Below, in pieces: positions 48,352-56,635 of a stretch of DNA of 58,822 nucleotides (the stretch's first letter is position 1; each line of letters starts with the position of its first letter). Made by a program: the position numbers and the translations under genes. The stretch spans positions 1 through 58,822 of the forward strand of contig JAETPK010000004.1 of the NCBI GenBank assembly GCA_021771265.1. Direction: 5' to 3'. The notes beneath the pieces are model-generated. The model searched no databases, was not told the DNA's origin, and was given only the letters and a program-made list of their open reading frames with translations. Origin of the DNA: Oscillospiraceae bacterium (GTDB lineage Bacteria > Bacillota > Clostridia > Oscillospirales > Oscillospiraceae).

Positions 48352-49108
48352 AGCGCTCCAGCGCCGGAATGACCACCGGCACGCCCCGGACCCGCTCCAC
48401 CGCCGCGTCCATGCCGTAAACGGCCCGGATGTTTGCCGGCGTCACCGCCTCCGGCCCGCCGAAGGCAAGGACCCGACCGCTGTGGAGGAACAAAAAGCGG
48501 TCACAGAACCGCAGAGCCAGGTTCAGGTCGTGGATGACCAGCACGGCGGTGATGTGCCGCTCCCGGCAGAAGCGCCGCACCAGTCCCAGCACCTCGTACT
48601 GGTTTTTCAGGTCCAGACTGCTGGTGGGCTCGTCCAGAAGCAGCAGCTTCGGCTCCTGGACCAGGGCCCGGGCCAGCAGGATCTTTTGCCGCTCGCCGCC
48701 GGAGAGCTGGTCCAGATACCGCATGGCGAAGGGCTCCAGCTCCAGCTGCCGCAAGATGTCGCCCACCACCGCCCGGTCATGCTGGCTGACGCCCCACTTC
48801 ATATAGGGCTTGCGTCCCAGCAGCAGCGTGTCGTACACCGTCAGCCGGGTGGACGGCGCGCTTTGGGCCATGAGGGCCGCCTCCCGGGCCAGCTCCCCCA
48901 GGGACAGGGACAGAATGTCCCGCCCGTCCACCAGCACCTGGCCGGACTGGGGCCGCAGGATATGGCTGAGGCACTTGAGCAGGGTGCTTTTGCCGGCACC
49001 GTTGTTGCCCAGCACCGCCAGACATTCCCCGGCGTCCGCGTGGAAGGAGATATCCTCCAGGATCTTCCGCCCGCAGGGATAGGAAAAGCACAGGTGTTCC
49101 ACAGTCAT
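48350..49108 (-). CDS. ABC transporter ATP-binding protein (FecE/BtuD-like)
   Basis: A 252-residue ATPase of the iron-siderophore/cobalamin class. Walker A GNNGAGKST (near residue 37), Q-loop LMAQSAPST, signature LSGGERQKILLARAL, Walker B LLLLDEPTSSLD and the H-loop IHDLNLALRF are intact. Start ATG 49108 overlaps the stop of the permease gene by one base. It powers uptake by the permease and binding protein encoded upstream. The position at the end of the lar operon points to metal or metallophore uptake. Confidence 0.93.
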   Translation of the reverse strand: MTVEHLCFSYPCGRKILEDISFHADAGECLAVLGNNGAGKSTLLKCLSHILRPQSGQVLVDGRDILSLSLGELAREAALMAQSAPSTRLTVYDTLLLGRKPYMKWGVSQHDRAVVGDILRQLELEPFAMRYLDQLSGGERQKILLARALVQEPKLLLLDEPTSSLDLKNQYEVLGLVRRFCRERHITAVLVIHDLNLALRFCDRFLFLHSGRVLAFGGPEAVTPANIRAVYGMDAAVERVRGVPVVIPALER

Positions 49109-50190
49109 CACAGCCGGTCCCTCCCCTTGAACAGCATGTACAAAAACAGCGGCGCCCCCAAAAAGGAGGTGATAGCGCCGATGGGCAGCACCACGGGGGC
49201 CAGGAGCTGCCGGGCCGCCAGGTCGCCCAAAAGCAGCAGCAGCGCGCCCATGAGGGCGGAGCCCGGCAGCAGCCAGCAGTAGTTGCCGCCCACCACCCGC
49301 CGCACCAGATGGGGGGCCACCAGGCCGATGAAATTGATGACGCCCACATAGGCCACAACCACGGAGCAGACCAGAGAGCACAGCAGCACGTTCCAAAGCC
49401 GCAGGCGCACCACATGGACCCCCAGGCTGACGGCGGTGTGCTCGCCGCTTTCCAGGGCGTTGTAATTCCAGCGATTCAGAAGAAAGACCGCCGCGGCCGC
49501 CAGGATCACCGCCGCCATGATGCGCACCTCCCGCCAGGAGGTGCGGCCCAGGTCGCCGAAGGTCCAGAACACGATGCTGGACAGCTGCACATCGTCGGCG
49601 AAGTATTGCAGCAGGGTGGACGCGCCGGAAAACAGGGAGCTGAGGGCCACGCCCGCCAGCACCATGGCCTCCGGCGTGATGGCCCGCAGCCGGGACAGGG
49701 CTAAAATCACCAGCGACACCGCCATGCTGCACACAAAGGCGCACACGCTGATGGTGACGGGAGCGGTGAAGGACATGGCGCCGGAGGCGCTGCTGCCGGA
49801 CTGGAGACCGGCGCCCAGCACGATAATGGCAAAGGCGGCGCCGAAGCTGGCCCCCTGGGAGATGCCCAGGGTGGAGGCGGAGGCCAGGGGGTTGCGCAGC
49901 ACGGATTGCAGCACACAGCCGGAGATGCCCAGCCCCGCGCCGCCCAGCAGCGCGGTACAGATGCGGGGCAGACGGAGATTGCGCACCACGGTGTTGACGC
50001 TTTTGTCTCCGGCCCGGCCGAACACGCCCCGCACCAGCTCCGGCAGGGGCGTTTCATAGGACCCGCACCACAAGGAGACCAGGACGGCGCACACCAACGC
50101 CGCCGCCAGCACCAGCAAAAACGCCGCCCGCCGCCCCTGGTGCCGGGCATAGGCCTCCGGCGCCTGCTGCCGAAGAGATGGATGGTTCAT
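49108..50190 (-). CDS. FecCD-family ABC permease
   Basis: A 360-residue membrane permease with about ten helices of the BtuC/FecC/FhuB type. The signatures RLPRICTALLGGAGLGISGCVLQSVLRNPLASASTLGISQGASFGA and the later EALVLAG-like MVLAGVALSSLFSG, plus FIGLVAPHLVRRVVGG coupling helix, are visible. It shares a one-base junction with the ATPase and is downstream of the binding lipoprotein. Substrates in this family are chelated iron, cobalamin or other metallophores. Confidence 0.93.
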   Translation of the reverse strand: MNHPSLRQQAPEAYARHQGRRAAFLLVLAAALVCAVLVSLWCGSYETPLPELVRGVFGRAGDKSVNTVVRNLRLPRICTALLGGAGLGISGCVLQSVLRNPLASASTLGISQGASFGAAFAIIVLGAGLQSGSSASGAMSFTAPVTISVCAFVCSMAVSLVILALSRLRAITPEAMVLAGVALSSLFSGASTLLQYFADDVQLSSIVFWTFGDLGRTSWREVRIMAAVILAAAAVFLLNRWNYNALESGEHTAVSLGVHVVRLRLWNVLLCSLVCSVVVAYVGVINFIGLVAPHLVRRVVGGNYCWLLPGSALMGALLLLLGDLAARQLLAPVVLPIGAITSFLGAPLFLYMLFKGRDRL

Positions 50191-50191
50191 G

Positions 50192-51283
50192 TCACGCCCC
50201 CAGTTTCAGCGTTGTAAAGGTGTAGCCCTGGGCGGCGTACTGGCTGTACGCATCCTCCACGCCCAGCATCATCTGGAAGATCTCGTTGAATTTTTCCGCC
50301 GGGTCGATGTCGGCGAACTGCTCCGGATAGAGGACCGTGCCGGCGTAATAGGCGTCCGCCAGGGCCAGTTCCGCGTTGGTGGCGCTGGAGCGGAAGGAGA
50401 TCTGGGAATACAGCCGCCCGTTTTCCACGGCGGAAAGGCTGCTGTAAAAATCGGGGTTCACGGTGTGGCTTTCCTGAACGAGGGCCATGCCGTTCCAATC
50501 CAGGAAGATCACGTCCGGGTCCCACTGAAGCACCTGCTCCGTGTCGATGCTGAAGGGGCCGGACTGGCCGGTCTGGTCCGCCAGGTTCCGGGCGTGGATG
50601 GCCGCCAGCGGGGGATACCCCGCCTCAGTGCCCTCAAAGCCGTGGGTGCCCTTGTAGGAGACGCCCGCCACGTATACCGTGGGCTTTTCCGCCTCCGGGA
50701 TGTCTCGGGTGCGGCCGTCCAGGTCCGCCTGGGCCGCCAGCAGGTAATCTGTCAGCTCCTGGGCACGGCTCTCCCGGTGGTACACCTCCCCCAACAGGGA
50801 GAGGGTGGTGAGGGCCGCCTCGTCGAACATGCCCTCATTGAGGGGAATAGTCACCACGGGGATGCCGGTGCGGGACTGGAGGCTGTCGGCGGTGTCGCCG
50901 TCCAGATAGGCCACGATGACATCCGGCGCCAGGCGGAGGATGTCCTCGTCGTAGGTGGTGCCGTTGTCGCCGGTCACCGGCAGGGCGGTGAAGCGCTCTC
51001 GGTTAAAATAACTGAAGGGCTTGGCCAGTGTGGCCGTCTGCTCTCCCTGCTCCACGCCCACCGCCAGGTCCTGGGCCTGGAGATAGGTGGTGTACCGCAG
51101 GGCGCCCACGCCCACGCAGACCACAGATGTTACTTCCTCCGGCAGCTCCACCTGGCGGCCGCTGGCGTCGGTGACGGTGCGAAGCGGCTCGCTGCTCTCC
51201 TGCGGGGCGGGCTCCGTTTGGGCGCCGCAGGCGGTCAACAGCAGCAGGGAGAGGCAAAGGAAAATGATACGCAGCTTTTTCAT
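50192..51283 (-). CDS. Metal/metallophore-binding lipoprotein of the BtuF/FecB type
   Basis: A 363-residue lipoprotein with a signal peptide ending in LLLLTAC (lipobox) and a class-III periplasmic-binding fold: RTVTDASGRQVELPEEVTSVVCVGVGALR (N lobe), EDILRLAPDVIVAY, and QWDPDVIFLDW (C lobe). Unlike classical BtuF, the ligand is not fixed by a motif. It starts after a short gap from fmdE and precedes the permease. With the lar genes, nickel-chelate or cobalt transport is a reasonable inference. Confidence 0.9.
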   Translation of the reverse strand: MKKLRIIFLCLSLLLLTACGAQTEPAPQESSEPLRTVTDASGRQVELPEEVTSVVCVGVGALRYTTYLQAQDLAVGVEQGEQTATLAKPFSYFNRERFTALPVTGDNGTTYDEDILRLAPDVIVAYLDGDTADSLQSRTGIPVVTIPLNEGMFDEAALTTLSLLGEVYHRESRAQELTDYLLAAQADLDGRTRDIPEAEKPTVYVAGVSYKGTHGFEGTEAGYPPLAAIHARNLADQTGQSGPFSIDTEQVLQWDPDVIFLDWNGMALVQESHTVNPDFYSSLSAVENGRLYSQISFRSSATNAELALADAYYAGTVLYPEQFADIDPAEKFNEIFQMMLGVEDAYSQYAAQGYTFTTLKLGA

Positions 51284-51304: not shown

Positions 51305-51832
51305 TTACCAGCCCCGGTCATAAGGGACGAAGCAGTCCAGACAGTAGGGCTTGCCGTCCACCAGGCGGACCTTGTGCTCCGGCACGGTCTCGCCGCAGCC
51401 GGCGCAGGTGACATTGGCAAACCGCCGGGCCGGCTCCGGCACGGGGCGGGTGGGAGTGCTGACGGCGAAGATCTGCTCCGCCGGAGCCTCCAGGATCATC
51501 CGCCGCCGCGCCTCCCGGTCCAGGTCTTCCGGCAGGGGCCTGAGCATGAGGCGGACGGCCCGGCCACTGCGGCGGCAATAAAAGGAGAAGGCCATTTTCC
51601 CGGTGCCCCGGTAAAGGAGGTTCCCTTTGCCCAGGGTGCAGCCGGTGATGACCTGGACGGCGTCCACACCGCAGGCGTCATTTTCCGTGACGCACACCAG
51701 TTCCTCGTCCCGGGCGCTTTCCGCCCCGCCCAGCAGCTCCAGAGCCAGGGTGGCCGCCCGGAAGCCGATGGCCAGTCCCGGGCAGGAGTGGCCGTGAAAG
51801 GCCACGCACTTGTCCCACAGTTCCTTATTCAT
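51305..51832 (-). CDS. FmdE-family protein with C-terminal zinc ribbon
   Basis: A 175-residue protein. The FmdE domain has FHGHSCPGLAIGFRAA (Cys/His cluster) and VTENDACGVDAVQVITGCTLGKGNL, the conserved Cys motif of FmdE/tungsten-formylmethanofuran-dehydrogenase accessory proteins. The C-terminal 40 residues form a zinc ribbon (CAGCGETVPEHKVRLVDGKPYCLDC). FmdE proteins are linked to Mo/W or metal enzyme maturation, but the exact role is unproven. It overlaps larC by 8 bases, so it is part of the lar operon. Confidence 0.88.
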   Translation of the reverse strand: MNKELWDKCVAFHGHSCPGLAIGFRAATLALELLGGAESARDEELVCVTENDACGVDAVQVITGCTLGKGNLLYRGTGKMAFSFYCRRSGRAVRLMLRPLPEDLDREARRRMILEAPAEQIFAVSTPTRPVPEPARRFANVTCAGCGETVPEHKVRLVDGKPYCLDCFVPYDRGW

Positions 51833-53153
51833 TCCGGCCCTCCCTGGCGGCGGCCAGTACGTCCTCCCACACCTGCTGGAAGGGGAGGCCCTGCTCTTTT
51901 GCCACCCGGGCCACGTCCCGGTATTCCGGCTTCTCCCGGCGGATGCCGAAGCCCCGGCCCGTTTTCACGGCCATGGGGCCATACGCCGTCTCCACCGTCC
52001 GCGCGGAGGGAGAGAGGATATAGCGCTCACAGCGGCGGACCCGGACGCCAAGGGTGCTGGTCTCCCGGAGGACAACCTTGGCCAGACGTTCCTCATCGGC
52101 GGGGCGGCATAGCACCGTGAGGGCCCACGCCGTCCGGCCCTTTTTCATGGTGATGGGAGCGGTGGACACATCCAGAGCCCCGTCGTCCAGCAGACGCTCC
52201 CCGGCGAAGGCCAGGGCCTCGGCCGTCATGTCGTCAATGTGACACACCAGCTCGGAAACGGCTTCCCGGCCGCCATCCTCTGTCTCACCCAGAAAGGCCC
52301 GGACGCAGTTGGCGGCGGGGAATTCCTTGACACCGGCGCCGATGCCGACGGCGGTTACCGCCATGGCGGGCTGGGGGCCGAAGCTCCCGCAGAAATGGGC
52401 CAGCAGGGCGGCGCCGGTGGGGGTGCACAGCTCGCCCCGGATTTCCCCGCCGTAGGTGGGAATGCCGGTGAGCAGATGGGCGGTGGCGGGGGCGGGCACC
52501 GGCATGACGCCGTGGGCGCAGCGGACCTGGCCGCTGCCCACGTGGACGGGAGAGGCCACCACCCGGTCCGGCGCCAGCAGGTGCATGGCCAGGCACACGC
52601 CGGTGACATCCGCCACGGCGTCCAGGGTACCCACCTCGTGAAAGTGGATCTCCGTCACCGGCACGCCGTGGGCCTTGGCCTCGGCGGCGGCGATGCGGTC
52701 ATAGACGGCCCTGGCGTTGGACTTTACCGCCTCCGGCACATCCAAATTTGCCAAAATGGCGGCGATGTCCGCCGGGGAGGCGTGGTGATGGTGATGGGCA
52801 TGGCCGTGGTCGTGGTCGTGATCGTGCTCATGCGCGTGTTCGTGGTGGTGGTCGTAGCCGTGATGGGCCTCGTCATGGGCCGTCTCGTGGCCGTGGTCAT
52901 GAACGGCGTCCCGGGCGGTGCCCAGGGCCACGTCGTGGCTGTGCTCCTCCTGCCCGTGGACCAGCACCTCCATGCGGGTGCCGACGATGCCGCAGGTGAC
53001 GGCGCTCCGGGGCGTCACGGTGACGCTGGGGAGCAGGCGGTTCATGGTGTCCAGAAAGGCGCCCTTCTGGGCTTGGGGCAGCAGCTCGTACAGGGCGGCC
53101 GTCAGCATGTCGCCGGCGGCGCCCATATTGCATTCCAGATACAGTGTTTTCAT
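51825..53153 (-). CDS. larC: Nickel insertion protein LarC, fused single reading frame
   Basis: A 442-residue CTP-dependent cyclometallase that inserts nickel into the pincer nucleotide to form the lactate-racemase cofactor. The N-terminus YLECNMGAAGDM, the FHEVGTLDAVADVTG motif and GELCTPTGAALLAHF are diagnostic. A His-rich loop (about residues 68-125) precedes the core. In some species larC is made from two frames by programmed frameshifting; here one frame covers LarC1 and LarC2. It overlaps larB by 4 bases. Confidence 0.94.
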   Translation of the reverse strand: MKTLYLECNMGAAGDMLTAALYELLPQAQKGAFLDTMNRLLPSVTVTPRSAVTCGIVGTRMEVLVHGQEEHSHDVALGTARDAVHDHGHETAHDEAHHGYDHHHEHAHEHDHDHDHGHAHHHHHASPADIAAILANLDVPEAVKSNARAVYDRIAAAEAKAHGVPVTEIHFHEVGTLDAVADVTGVCLAMHLLAPDRVVASPVHVGSGQVRCAHGVMPVPAPATAHLLTGIPTYGGEIRGELCTPTGAALLAHFCGSFGPQPAMAVTAVGIGAGVKEFPAANCVRAFLGETEDGGREAVSELVCHIDDMTAEALAFAGERLLDDGALDVSTAPITMKKGRTAWALTVLCRPADEERLAKVVLRETSTLGVRVRRCERYILSPSARTVETAYGPMAVKTGRGFGIRREKPEYRDVARVAKEQGLPFQQVWEDVLAAAREGRNE

Positions 53154-53902
53154 TTTAGACCCTCCATTTGATTGATGCGGCTGGCCAGGAAGCCCGCGCC
53201 GAAGCCGTTGTCGATATTTACCACGCTGACGCCGCTGGCGCAGGAGTTCAGCATGGATAGAAGCGCGCTCATGCCCCCGAAGGAGGCGCCGTAGCCCACG
53301 CTGGTGGGCACGGCGATGACCGGGCAGTCCACAAGACCGCCGATGACGCTGGCCAGGGCACCCTCCATGCCCGCCACGGCAATGACCACCCGGGCGGTCA
53401 TGAGCGGCTCCAGATTGCTCAAAAGCCGGTGCAGCCCCGCCACACCCACGTCGTACAGCCGGGTGACCCGGTTGCCCAGGGTCTCGGCGGTGATGGCGGC
53501 CTCCTCGGCCACGCCCATGTCGCTGGTGCCGCCGGTGGCCACTACGATGCTGCCCCGGCCCTCCACGGTCTTGGGCAGCGCCACCGCCAGGCGGGACAAT
53601 GGCTCGTAACGCAGGGGGAACTGCTCCGCCAGAAATTCCGCCGTCTCCCGTGGGATGCGGGTCACCAGGATGTTGGCGCAGTCCCGGCGGGCCATGGCCT
53701 CCAGAATGCCGGCAATCTGCTCCGGCGTTTTGGACTGGCCGTAAATGACCTCCGGCACCCCCTGGCGGGCGGAGCGGTGGTGATCCACCTTGGCGTAGCC
53801 CAGATCCTCATAGGGGGCCAGCTTCAATTGCAGCAGGGCGTCCTCCGGCGTCAGGGCGCCGGCCTGGACTGCCTGCAGGACCGATAAAATGTTGTTTGCC
53901 AT
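53150..53902 (-). CDS. larB: Pyridinium-3,5-biscarboxylic acid mononucleotide synthase LarB
   Basis: A 250-residue LarB, which carboxylates and hydrolyses NaAD at the start of nickel-pincer-nucleotide synthesis. The N-terminal region LQLKLAPYEDLGYAKVDHHRSARQGVPEVIYGQSKTPEQ and the C-terminal PurE-like domain (VVATGGTSDMGVAEEAAITAE, GMEGALASVIGGLVDCPVIAVPTSVGYG) are characteristic. Of two adjacent ATGs (53905 and 53902) the second gives the better distance to AAGGAGG. It follows larE by 10 bases on the same strand. Confidence 0.94.
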   Translation of the reverse strand: MANNILSVLQAVQAGALTPEDALLQLKLAPYEDLGYAKVDHHRSARQGVPEVIYGQSKTPEQIAGILEAMARRDCANILVTRIPRETAEFLAEQFPLRYEPLSRLAVALPKTVEGRGSIVVATGGTSDMGVAEEAAITAETLGNRVTRLYDVGVAGLHRLLSNLEPLMTARVVIAVAGMEGALASVIGGLVDCPVIAVPTSVGYGASFGGMSALLSMLNSCASGVSVVNIDNGFGAGFLASRINQMEGLK

Positions 53903-53912
53903 CATGTCCTCC

Positions 53913-54668
53913 TTACTCCGACGGGACCCGGGGCGCCAGGTCCAAGGCCGCACTTTCAAACAGGGGCCGCAGCCGCCTTTGGATCTCATTCCGGCGGGCG
54001 GCGGCCAGGGGCCACTGGGTCTCTGTTACCTGCACCAGGGCCATGCCCTGGCGAACACGCACCCGAAAGTCCCGGAAGCCCAGCTCCGTCAGGGCGGCCT
54101 CCGCCGCTTCCACAGACCGCAGCAGCTCCGCCGTCAGCGCCGTGCCGGCGGGGACGCGGGTGGCAAGGCAGGCGTAGGCGGGCTTGTCCCAGGTGGGAAG
54201 ACCCGCCTCCCGGCTCAGTCGCCGGACACCGGCCTTGGTCAGGCCGCATTCCCGCAGGGGGGAGCGGACCTCCAGCTCCCGCAGCGCCCGCATGCCGGGC
54301 CGGTCTCCGGCGTCGTCAGAGGCGTTGGTGCCGTCGATGACCAGGGGGCAGCCGTCCCGTCGGGCCTGGTCCAGGATGGCGGAAAAGAGCAAGCGCTTGC
54401 AGTGATAGCAGCGGTCGGGAGGGTTGGCGGCCACCGTCTCATTTTGCAGCACATCCACGTCCAGCACCGTCAGCGGCAGGCCGCACTGGCCAGCCACCTG
54501 CCGGGCGTCCGCCAGCTCAAAGGCGGGCTGGAAGGGGGAGTGCACATAGTAGGCCCGCCAATCGCTGCCGTACCGGGCGGCGGCCCACACCAGCAGGGAG
54601 GAGTCCACTCCGCCGGAAAAGGCCACGGCCCCGGCGGGGTGTGATCGGAAAAATTCAGAGAGTTCCAT
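53913..54668 (-). CDS. larE: ATP-dependent sacrificial sulfur transferase LarE
   Basis: A 251-residue PP-loop enzyme of cofactor synthesis. The ATP-binding SGGVDSS is at residues 18-24, CYHCKRLLF at about 87-95, and the sulfur-donor region YACLATR includes Cys167, matching the sacrificial cysteine of the single-use LarE class. It is the first gene of the lar operon and is preceded by a structured leader ending in a terminator. LarA itself is not in the window. Confidence 0.94.
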   Translation of the reverse strand: MELSEFFRSHPAGAVAFSGGVDSSLLVWAAARYGSDWRAYYVHSPFQPAFELADARQVAGQCGLPLTVLDVDVLQNETVAANPPDRCYHCKRLLFSAILDQARRDGCPLVIDGTNASDDAGDRPGMRALRELEVRSPLRECGLTKAGVRRLSREAGLPTWDKPAYACLATRVPAGTALTAELLRSVEAAEAALTELGFRDFRVRVRQGMALVQVTETQWPLAAARRNEIQRRLRPLFESAALDLAPRVPSE

Positions 54669-54810
54669 AGAACGGTCCTTTCATAAAAAAACAGCATACC
54701 CCCTGGGAGGGTATGCCTTCTGACATCCGGCGCGGCTTCAGCCGCCCATAAAATGGAAACGTTTGAAAACAGGCGCTTCTGCGCCGGGCGGTCCTTCAGG
54801 GCCGCGATGT
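54669..54810 (-). promoter_or_regulatory. Structured leader of the lar operon, candidate riboswitch/attenuator
   Basis: The approximately 140-base leader before larE can fold as several compact hairpins: GCGG/CCGC with a UGAA loop, GGCGC/GCGCC with an AGAA loop, GCGGC/GCCGC with a UGAA loop, and a possible closing pair ACAUC/GAUGU. An alternative CCGCCC/GGGCGG pairing would break the first and third hairpins. The leader ends in an intrinsic terminator (54684-54719). That switch-like arrangement is typical of riboswitches or attenuators; I could not match it to a known class. Confidence 0.55.
54684..54719 (-). terminator. Intrinsic terminator inside the lar leader
   Basis: Minus strand: GCATACCC / GGGTATGC stem followed by TGTTTTTTT, located 16 bases upstream of the larE ATG. 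It precedes the coding region rather than following one, so it is regulatory. Confidence 0.8.
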
Positions 54811-54816
54811 ATCCCC

Positions 54817-54845
54817 AGTATACCGGAACACGCCGCCAGCGTCAA
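54817..54845 (-). promoter_or_regulatory. Promoter of the lar operon
   Basis: Minus strand: TTGACG (54845-54840), 17-base spacer, TATACT (54822-54817). About 150-base leader to larE. Confidence 0.75.
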
Positions 54846-54928: not shown

Positions 54929-55363
54929 ATGAAGCGGACAGAACTGCTGGTGGCCGTCGTGGACGGCCAGGGCGGCGGCATGGGCCGGGCCCTGACAGAA
55001 GCGGTGAAAAAGAAATTCCCGGACCTGCGGGTCCGTGCCCTGGGCACCAACGCCCTGGCCACCGCCGCCATGCTGAAGGGCGGCGCCGACGAGGGGGCCA
55101 CCGGGGAGAATGCCGTGGCCTTCGGCGCCGCCAGGGCCCACGTCCTGCTGGGACCCGTGGGCGTTCTGGCGGCCAACGGATTGCTGGGGGAGGTGACGCC
55201 CTGCATGGCGGAGGCCATTGGCGCCAGCGAGGCGGTGAAGATCCTGCTGCCCTCCCAGCGGTGCAGCATCCGCCTGGCGGTGGGGCCGGCCCAGCCGCTG
55301 CAATATTATCTGGAAGACGCCATGCGGCTGCTGGACGAGGAAGTCCGGCGGCTGACGGCGTGA
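54929..55363 (+). CDS. DUF3842 family protein
   Basis: A 144-residue protein beginning KRTELLVAVVDGQGGGMGRALTEAVKKKFPD. A Gly-rich loop VDGQGGGMG follows the first strand and could bind a nucleotide or phosphate, and LGPVGVLAANGLLGEVTPCMAEAIGAS lies in the middle. The family is widespread in Clostridia but uncharacterised. It is divergent from larE and starts a plus-strand group with the broken transporter and xdhC. Function unknown. Confidence 0.8.
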   Translation: MKRTELLVAVVDGQGGGMGRALTEAVKKKFPDLRVRALGTNALATAAMLKGGADEGATGENAVAFGAARAHVLLGPVGVLAANGLLGEVTPCMAEAIGASEAVKILLPSQRCSIRLAVGPAQPLQYYLEDAMRLLDEEVRRLTA

Positions 55364-55385: not shown

Positions 55386-56635
55386 ATGACAAAGCAGAAA
55401 ACGACTGTGGGGAGGGACGCCTTTCGGTCCCAGTGGGGCTTCCGGCTGGCCTGTGTGGGCTCTGCCGTGGGCATGGGCAACATCTGGCTGTTTCCCGCCC
55501 GGGTGTCCCGCTACGGCGGTGCCACTTTTTTGATCCCCTACGTTTTGTTCGTGGTGCTCATTGCCTCCACCGGCGTCATTGGGGAGATGGCCTTCGGCCG
55601 GGCCACCGGCGGTGGTCCCGTGGTGGCCTTCGGCGCCGCCGCCCGGCGGCGCACGGGGCAGCGGCGCTGGGGCGAGGCCCTGGGCCTTGTGCCTGTGGTG
55701 GGCTCCCTGGCCCTGGCCATCGGCTATTCCGTGGTGGTGGGCTGGCTGCTGAAATACGCCGTGGGCGCCTTCACCGGCGCTGTGCTGGCCAACGAGGGCG
55801 TGGCGGGCTTTGACGCGTACTTCTCCGCAGCGGCCTCCGCCTGGGGCAATACCGGCTGGCAGGTGGCGGCCATGGTGGTGACGATGCTGGTCATGGCCTT
55901 CGGCATCGGCGGCGGCATCGAAAAGGTGAACAAGATCCTCATGCCGGTGTTCTTCATTTTGTTTTTGGTGCTGGCCATTTATATCGCGGGCCTGCCCGGC
56001 GCGGCGGAGGGCTACCGCTATATCTTCGTGCTGCGGCCCAAAGAGCTGCTGGACCCCATGGTGTGGGTCTATGCCTTGGGGCAGGCGTTTTTCTCGCTGT
56101 CCATCGCGGGCAACGGCACGCTGATCTACGGCTCCTACCTCTCCAGGCGGGAGAGACTTTGGATAAAAGCGGCCCGGGCCTCATGTTCATCTTCCTGCCC
56201 AATCTGTTCAAGACCATGCCCGGCGGCACGGTTATCATGATGGTATTTTTCGTGGCGGCACTGTTTGCGGGCTTTACCTCCCTGATGAACCTCTTTGAGG
56301 CCCCCACCGCCACCCTCCAGGAAAAACTGCGCCTCAGCCGCCGCCAGGCGGTGGCGGTCATCGGCGCTGTGGGCCTGACTGTGGGCCTTTCCATCCAGGG
56401 CATCGTCTCCGGGTGGATGGACATCTGCTCCATCTATGCCTGCCCGGTGGGCGCCCTGCTGGCCGGCGTGTTCTTCTTCTGGGTGTACGGCCGGGAGGAG
56501 TGCCTGGAGCAGGTGAACCTGGCCCGGCAGAAGCCACTTGGCCCCTGGTTCTATCCGCTGGCGAAATACGGCTTTTGCGGTGTGACGGTACTGGTGCTCA
56601 TTCTGGGCGCCGCCGTGAAGGGAGGCATCGGCTGA
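55386..56635 (+). pseudogene. Sodium:neurotransmitter symporter (NSS/SNF), deleted and frameshifted
   Basis: An NSS transporter interrupted by a frame change. The 5' part (55386 to about 56155) reads WGFRLACVGSAVGMGNIWLFPARVSRYGG, the sodium-site helix 1, through GNGTLIYGSYLSRRE at helix 6. The sequence then goes out of frame and resumes in the +2 frame as DKSGPGLMFIFLPNLF (about 56165) to the stop at 56635. The intervening part of helix 7, about 30-40 residues judged against the family, is missing. The remaining helices are intact. A deletion or an assembly error near 56155 explains it. Family size is about 450 residues; this spans 417 codons. Confidence 0.85.

Follow-up and report, generated by a model that had tools for sequence, protein, structure and literature searches.

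What decides whether RNA polymerase, once it has left the larE promoter, enters the genes for synthesis of the nickel-pincer nucleotide, a cofactor that derives from the NAD pathway? The question is raised by the minus strand of a 58,822-nucleotide stretch of DNA from an Oscillospiraceae bacterium, which was analysed as a whole and is called the window here. A promoter-like site is followed by four hairpins, an intrinsic terminator and then larE, with 16 nt between the U-tract and the larE ATG, and the genes behind this leader are, in order, larE, larB, larC, an FmdE-like gene and genes for an iron/cobalamin-type ABC importer (Table 1). The initial annotation had recognised the promoter, hairpins with UGAA and AGAA loops and the terminator at that distance from the ATG, all of which are present in the sequence, and had read the leader as riboswitch-like. 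The reading preferred here, to which I give a probability of about one half, is antitermination: a switch that is off by default and is worked by a trans-acting protein, most likely DUF3842.

Table 1. Positions in the window of the larE leader, the lar operon and the divergent DUF3842 gene.
Feature	Coordinates	Strand	Basis or remark
ABC importer substrate-binding protein and FecCD permease (two genes)	49108..51283	-	Pfam PF01497, PF01032
FmdE-like protein, C-terminal zinc finger, same gene row	51305..51832	-	Pfam PF02663 and PF01258
larC	51825..53153	-	Pfam Ni_insertion PF01969, E 1.4e-128
larB (first ATG probably upstream of the actual start)	53150..53989	-	AIR carboxylase domain (Pfam), as expected of LarB
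larE	53913..54668	-	NCBIfam TIGR00268, 246 bits against a cut-off of 150
Intrinsic terminator, 11 bp stem	54693..54717	-	followed by U-tract 54691-54685
H4, AUGUC-AGAA-GGCAU, putative antiterminator	54713..54726	-	sequence; GGCAU common with terminator
H3, GCGGC-UGAA-GCCGC, downstream pair member 1	54732..54745	-	sequence
H2, GGCGC-AGAA-GCGCC, upstream pair member 2	54772..54785	-	covarying unit in larE alignment A1
H1, CGGCCC-UGAA-GGACCG, one mismatch, upstream pair member 1	54789..54804	-	sequence
larE promoter-like site, TTGACG-17-TATACT	54817..54845	-	consensus scan, 10/12 matches
DUF3842 gene, transcribed away from larE; candidate trans-acting factor	54929..55363	+	Pfam PF12953

Beside the DUF3842 gene lies a gene for an SNF-family symporter (window 55386-56635) that looks split by eye: a 284-aa frame stops at 56240 and a C-terminal-like frame runs from about 56063 to 56635. 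A frameshift or an assembly error is therefore likely.

The four hairpins carry C-[A/U]GAA-G loops and are arranged as two pairs, the loop-to-loop distance being 14 nt for H1-H2 and 15 nt for H3-H4. H4 does not appear in the initial annotation. Its 3' arm, GGCAU, doubles as the first part of the terminator's 5' arm; H4 and the terminator are therefore mutually exclusive, and the corresponding energies are -3.7 and -16.8 kcal/mol. Because the terminator is the stronger of the two, the switch is off by default, as long as nothing holds H4. Overlap of an H4-type hairpin with the terminator is also visible by eye in other larE leaders. A different two-state pairing had been proposed from the sequence of the window, between CCGCCC (54791-54786) and GGGCGG (54747-54742); the two segments are complementary, but the pairing is absent from five of five other larE leaders. 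The competing structure is H4 against the terminator.

Could the leader simply be constitutive, with an ordinary partial terminator and hairpins that are GC-rich by chance or for the sake of RNA stability? Its folding energy is compatible with this, being unexceptional and not decisive (z of -1.78 for the entire leader, -1.20 with the terminator removed). The hairpins argue otherwise. By strict criteria the 144-nt leader holds 3 hairpins of this loop class, whereas dinucleotide shuffles of it average 0.07 and one of 5000 attained 3; the loop class was defined after the sequences had been viewed. Direct DNA similarity to the leader is so sparse (4 of 99 genomes match, the window's own among them) that structure was used for comparison instead, and larE leaders elsewhere in the genus follow the same plan despite their weak DNA similarity. 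Among the 4-nt-loop hairpins with stems of at least 4 in 23 upstream regions, AGAA is the commonest loop (27) and UGAA is tied second (6). In nine of the 23 regions (L011, L016, L018-L021, L023, L025, L026), a leader of this kind could not be seen by eye immediately upstream of larE, in several cases because larE is internal to a longer operon.

Alignment of 13 larE pair units (A1) gave a loop-to-loop distance of exactly 15 nt in 11 and 14 nt in 2, with standard pairs in 97.7% of pair cells. Double-change cells numbered 48, against 15.6 in shuffles (reached by 0 of 500), a test that is biased if taken alone because the units were chosen for possessing stems. In 19 alignable leaders of genes encoding an ECF transporter S-component (ECF-S), H1 and H2 covary as well, with 11 double-change cells against 3.0 and none of 500 shuffles reaching that value; the number of pair types in these leaders is not above shuffles (212/500), and H3 is almost invariant and contributes nothing to the signal. 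The shuffle test and the covariation, together with recurrence of the leader before one functional gene set, make a constitutive leader very improbable.

Recurrence was assessed with a covariance model of the 13 larE pair units (R1), which was run against 86 genomes of the genus. The best of the R1 matches listed is the H3-H4 unit of the window (41.7 bits), which belonged to the training set, and other larE leaders of that set were retrieved too. Among the same matches, R1, built from larE leaders alone, also retrieves leaders of ECF-S genes. In genome G049, an R1-matched leader is flanked by DUF3842 on one side and, on the other, by an ABC operon of the NikA type that continues into larE. A minority of the weak R1 matches was read, in some cases because DUF3842 was nearby. 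A second model of 16 units (R2), used with an E cut-off of 0.02 on 394 genomes of the order, gave matches in 43 of them; the reading covered 31 of 46 rows, and 28 new loci were judged true in 7 cases (one larE leader, four ECF-S leaders and two leaders of a membrane-like gene) and false in 21. Matches of either model in coding sequence were dismissed as false by eye. The rpsF leaders L089 and L092-L095, which were matched by the tandem-hairpin model, were treated as false positives; they resemble the S6:S18-binding RNA motif. At L087, L090, L126 and L128, a small gene starting MACF(L/I)VP(A/T)AEA stands directly behind such a leader, and two fragments of it that were searched had no Pfam match.

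Hairpins of the same kind also precede cbiM in Bacillus marasmi and in a Calditrichales bacterium, where, counted by hand, the loops lie 40 nt apart in either case. Within the genus, many ECF-S leaders have a final hairpin that overlaps a CUCCC arm complementary to the GGGAG ribosome-binding site, so that similar switching may act on translation. As this design stands before genes for nickel uptake and for vitamin-type transporters alike, it probably represents one on-switch common to them.

What would hold the last hairpin? The main rival of protein-type antitermination is a direct riboswitch, in which the hairpin pairs would stabilise the last hairpin by taking up a ligand themselves: nickel, pincer nucleotide or a precursor. 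That a single control element governs both the making of a cofactor and its probable import is the usual logic of riboswitches, and the stems covary while the loops are conserved. Against this, the loops vary across leaders (AGAA, UGAA, AUGAA, ACGAA, AGGAA, CAA, CCAA), as do the number of hairpins and the spacing between pairs, so that a binding pocket would have little conserved sequence to draw on, and the leader is found in only one of seven genomes that retain the ECF-S gene without DUF3842. At the gathering cut-off, the Rfam 15 covariance models gave no match in the window or in 14 related loci, and at a permissive threshold the leader gave four chance-level matches (best E 1.2). The initial annotation, which could place the leader in no riboswitch class, is borne out on that point. 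It would have given way to a lack of covariation across larE leaders or to a match with a known RNA class unrelated to the operon; covariation was found and the Rfam scan returned no such match. What stands of its riboswitch idea is a leader with a terminator before the lar operon, and its guess of nickel or the pincer nucleotide as the ligand fits the gene set; direct sensing by the RNA is less likely than sensing by a protein, and I consider it unlikely.

Repeated short-loop hairpins in variable copy number, in a leader missing from most DUF3842-less genomes, point to a trans-acting protein, for which DUF3842 is the best candidate. Among the matches listed, DUF3842 was found in 25 of the 27 genomes with sites judged true after the RNA-model searches, 7 of those sites having been read partly because DUF3842 shared the contig (18 of 20 without them). 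Of the genomes with a completeness of 90% or more, all 32 that are motif-positive have it, compared with 4 of the remaining 10 (p 4e-5); the motif-positive list was drawn up partly by eye and leaves out G052 (leader L017, seen by eye), and motif-negative means that the motif was not seen, the upstream ends of Nik-lar operons being unread in, for example, G019, G021, G113 and G031. Leaders with at least two hairpins precede ECF-S in 41 of 46 DUF3842-positive genomes and in 1 of 7 DUF3842-negative ones (p 1.3e-4), a count that covers 53 of the 56 ECF-S genomes (the leaders of G025, G054 and G100 were not taken in) and, like the other genus statistics, ignores phylogeny. The five exceptions among the positive genomes are G013, G101, G119, G030 and G114, and the motif occurs with no DUF3842 detected in G058 (67% complete), G015 (65%) and G290 (85%).

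At 30 order-level DUF3842 loci, a leader lies directly downstream in only 10 (by eye; L141 not parsed), and the genes behind these leaders in other genera are ECF-S, larE, a membrane-like gene and cbiM. In the best 80 of 576 DUF3842 loci, which were picked via DUF3842 and not via the RNA, the neighbours include ECF-S (15), a kinase-like protein, Kin (12), CbiM (8), LarB and LarC (7 each), LarE (6), CooT (4), NikB (3) and NikA (2), besides FmdE-like genes, which thus lie near DUF3842 in 4 of these loci as well. By a strict rule (loops NGAA or NNGAA, closed by C-G), at least two hairpins precede 8 of 49 neighbours of the lar, nickel or ECF-S type but 1 of 421 other open reading frames in these 80 loci (p 7e-8), one of the 8, at L144, coming from a genome that the genus set also contains; at least one hairpin precedes 17 of 49 and 17 of 421, respectively. 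The majority of target neighbours are therefore without a leader by this rule. CooT-type nickel-protein genes directly follow DUF3842 at L113 (by Pfam), at L167, L169, L177 and L191 (by similarity) and at L114 (by eye), so that the nickel link reaches past the lar pathway.

The structure model of DUF3842 (pLDDT 95.9) showed a common Rossmann-like arrangement in a fold search, in which no RNA-binding fold stood out among the matches listed, and a sequence search of the PDB returned nothing significant. This lack of a recognised RNA-binding module among those matches counts against the preferred reading, and the role of DUF3842 as the RNA-binding factor, although the most likely assignment, is predicted from sequence comparison.

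The hairpins might instead be bound by another RNA-binding protein, with DUF3842 a protein of the pathway. ANTAR-type proteins come to mind, since dual hairpins of which the second overlaps a terminator are the ANTAR design (PMC3369931, PMC8934654, in the parts available), and they are encoded in 45 of the 86 genus genomes, including that of the window. However, the loops are not hexaloops with A1 and G4, and no ANTAR protein (PF03861) was found in 10 of the 32 motif-positive near-complete genomes, and the presence of ANTAR does not follow that of the motif (p 0.45). ANTAR was therefore rejected as the general factor. As the genome of the window has an ANTAR protein, this argument applies to the class and not to the window itself. 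Binding by some other protein, ANTAR-type or not, seems to me distinctly unlikely. Four weak R1 matches near ANTAR genes proved, when read by eye, to be antisense to coding sequence, presumably glnA, and were discarded.

What the switch may serve is suggested by the distribution of synthesis and transport genes. In the 86 genus genomes, LarC or LarE is present in 34 and ECF-S in 56, and ECF-S accompanies 46 of the 52 genomes without LarC/LarE against 10 of the 34 with them (p 2.4e-8, phylogeny ignored). With cut-offs of my own choosing (Lar_N 100 bits, ECF-S 90 bits), 40 genomes have a strong LarA; 25 of these are without LarC/E, and 22 of the 25 carry ECF-S. The three that have neither are 71-84% complete, and among strong-LarA genomes without LarC/E that are at least 90% complete, ECF-S is present in 12 of 12. 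This make-or-import pattern suggests that ECF-S is a cofactor importer, which may carry the pincer cofactor itself, a precursor or the corresponding nucleoside. Part of the genus encodes a kinase-like protein (L069:2268-3332 and relatives) between DUF3842 and ECF-S; the likeness of its C-terminal half to nucleoside-type kinases is distant and below curated cut-offs, and the protein is a possible salvage kinase. Since one type of leader stands over synthesis and import, the signal may be the cofactor or nickel. In 24 of the 86 genomes, ECF-S occurs without a strong LarA and without LarC/E (weaker Lar_N matches occur in many genomes), and 69 of 134 DUF3842-positive genomes of the order are without LarA at E 1e-10, so that there may be contexts or substrates other than the pincer cofactor.

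The protein-worked antitermination switch would then operate as follows. Polymerase transcribes the hairpins and, when the factor is absent, the terminator would prevail. When present, the trans-acting protein would bind the loops pairwise and stabilise H4, the terminator would be prevented and polymerase would enter larEBC; in ECF-S leaders, stabilisation of the final hairpin would free translation. The most likely binding protein is DUF3842, Rossmann-like and encoded beside many such leaders, which would signal that nickel-pincer nucleotide or nickel is scarce. Switching on would bring larEBC synthesis, probable import through ECF-S and the kinase-like protein, and nickel uptake through the NikA-type ABC importer and CbiM. 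A broader reading, which I offer tentatively, is that DUF3842 is the first member of a new class of RNA-binding regulators, a Rossmann sensor of nickel-pincer nucleotide or nickel that would act through tandem ..GAA hairpins on termination or translation, perhaps in several phyla, and that ECF-S and the kinase would be the first uptake system for the pincer cofactor or its nucleoside.

If these proposals are true, the nickel-pincer pathway gains a regulatory system, DUF3842, a family so far uncharacterised, and an orphan ECF transporter each acquire a function, and gut anaerobes may share the cofactor, many LarA-bearing gut bacteria using that made by others. The protein working the switch would be one with no previously known regulatory role. 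Within the literature searched, a scope outside which most subscription journals lie, DUF3842 is not mentioned, and among the papers listed no title or abstract start describes such a leader switch before larE or the lar operon, or the proposed cofactor import. The available portions of the main text of PMC8632094 and PMC11109978 do not contain nickel, larE, racemase or ECF, and in those of PMC12611868, PMC11770544 and PMC7583248 neither leader regulation nor cofactor import was found.

The larE leader can be set beside three known systems. Like the NiCo riboswitch, which contains a four-way junction, it stands before nickel/cobalt-related genes; unlike it, it is made of tandem hairpins with no such junction, and Rfam gave no match to that class. 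The guanidine-II (mini-ykkC) riboswitch, which controls other genes, consists of two tandem small hairpins with repeated ACGR loops. The leader has tandem small hairpins with a repeated loop as well, but its loops are not ACGR and Rfam returned no match to guanidine-II. The RNA targets of ANTAR proteins such as EutV, as the accessible parts of PMC3369931 and PMC8934654 describe them, are two small, close hairpins with a conserved loop and top pair, of which the second overlaps a terminator, the default being off. H3 and H4 share these features, the second likewise overlapping the terminator in a leader that is off by default. The ANTAR targets have hexaloops with A1 and G4, whereas the leaders described here have short ..GAA or ..CAA loops closed by C-G; the NGAA and NNGAA loops are tetraloops and pentaloops, a tetraloop with its closing pair reading C-N-G-A-A-G. 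Unlike the ANTAR targets, too, the fullest larE leaders have two pairs of hairpins, and the loops within a pair lie 14-15 nt apart in all 13 larE units.
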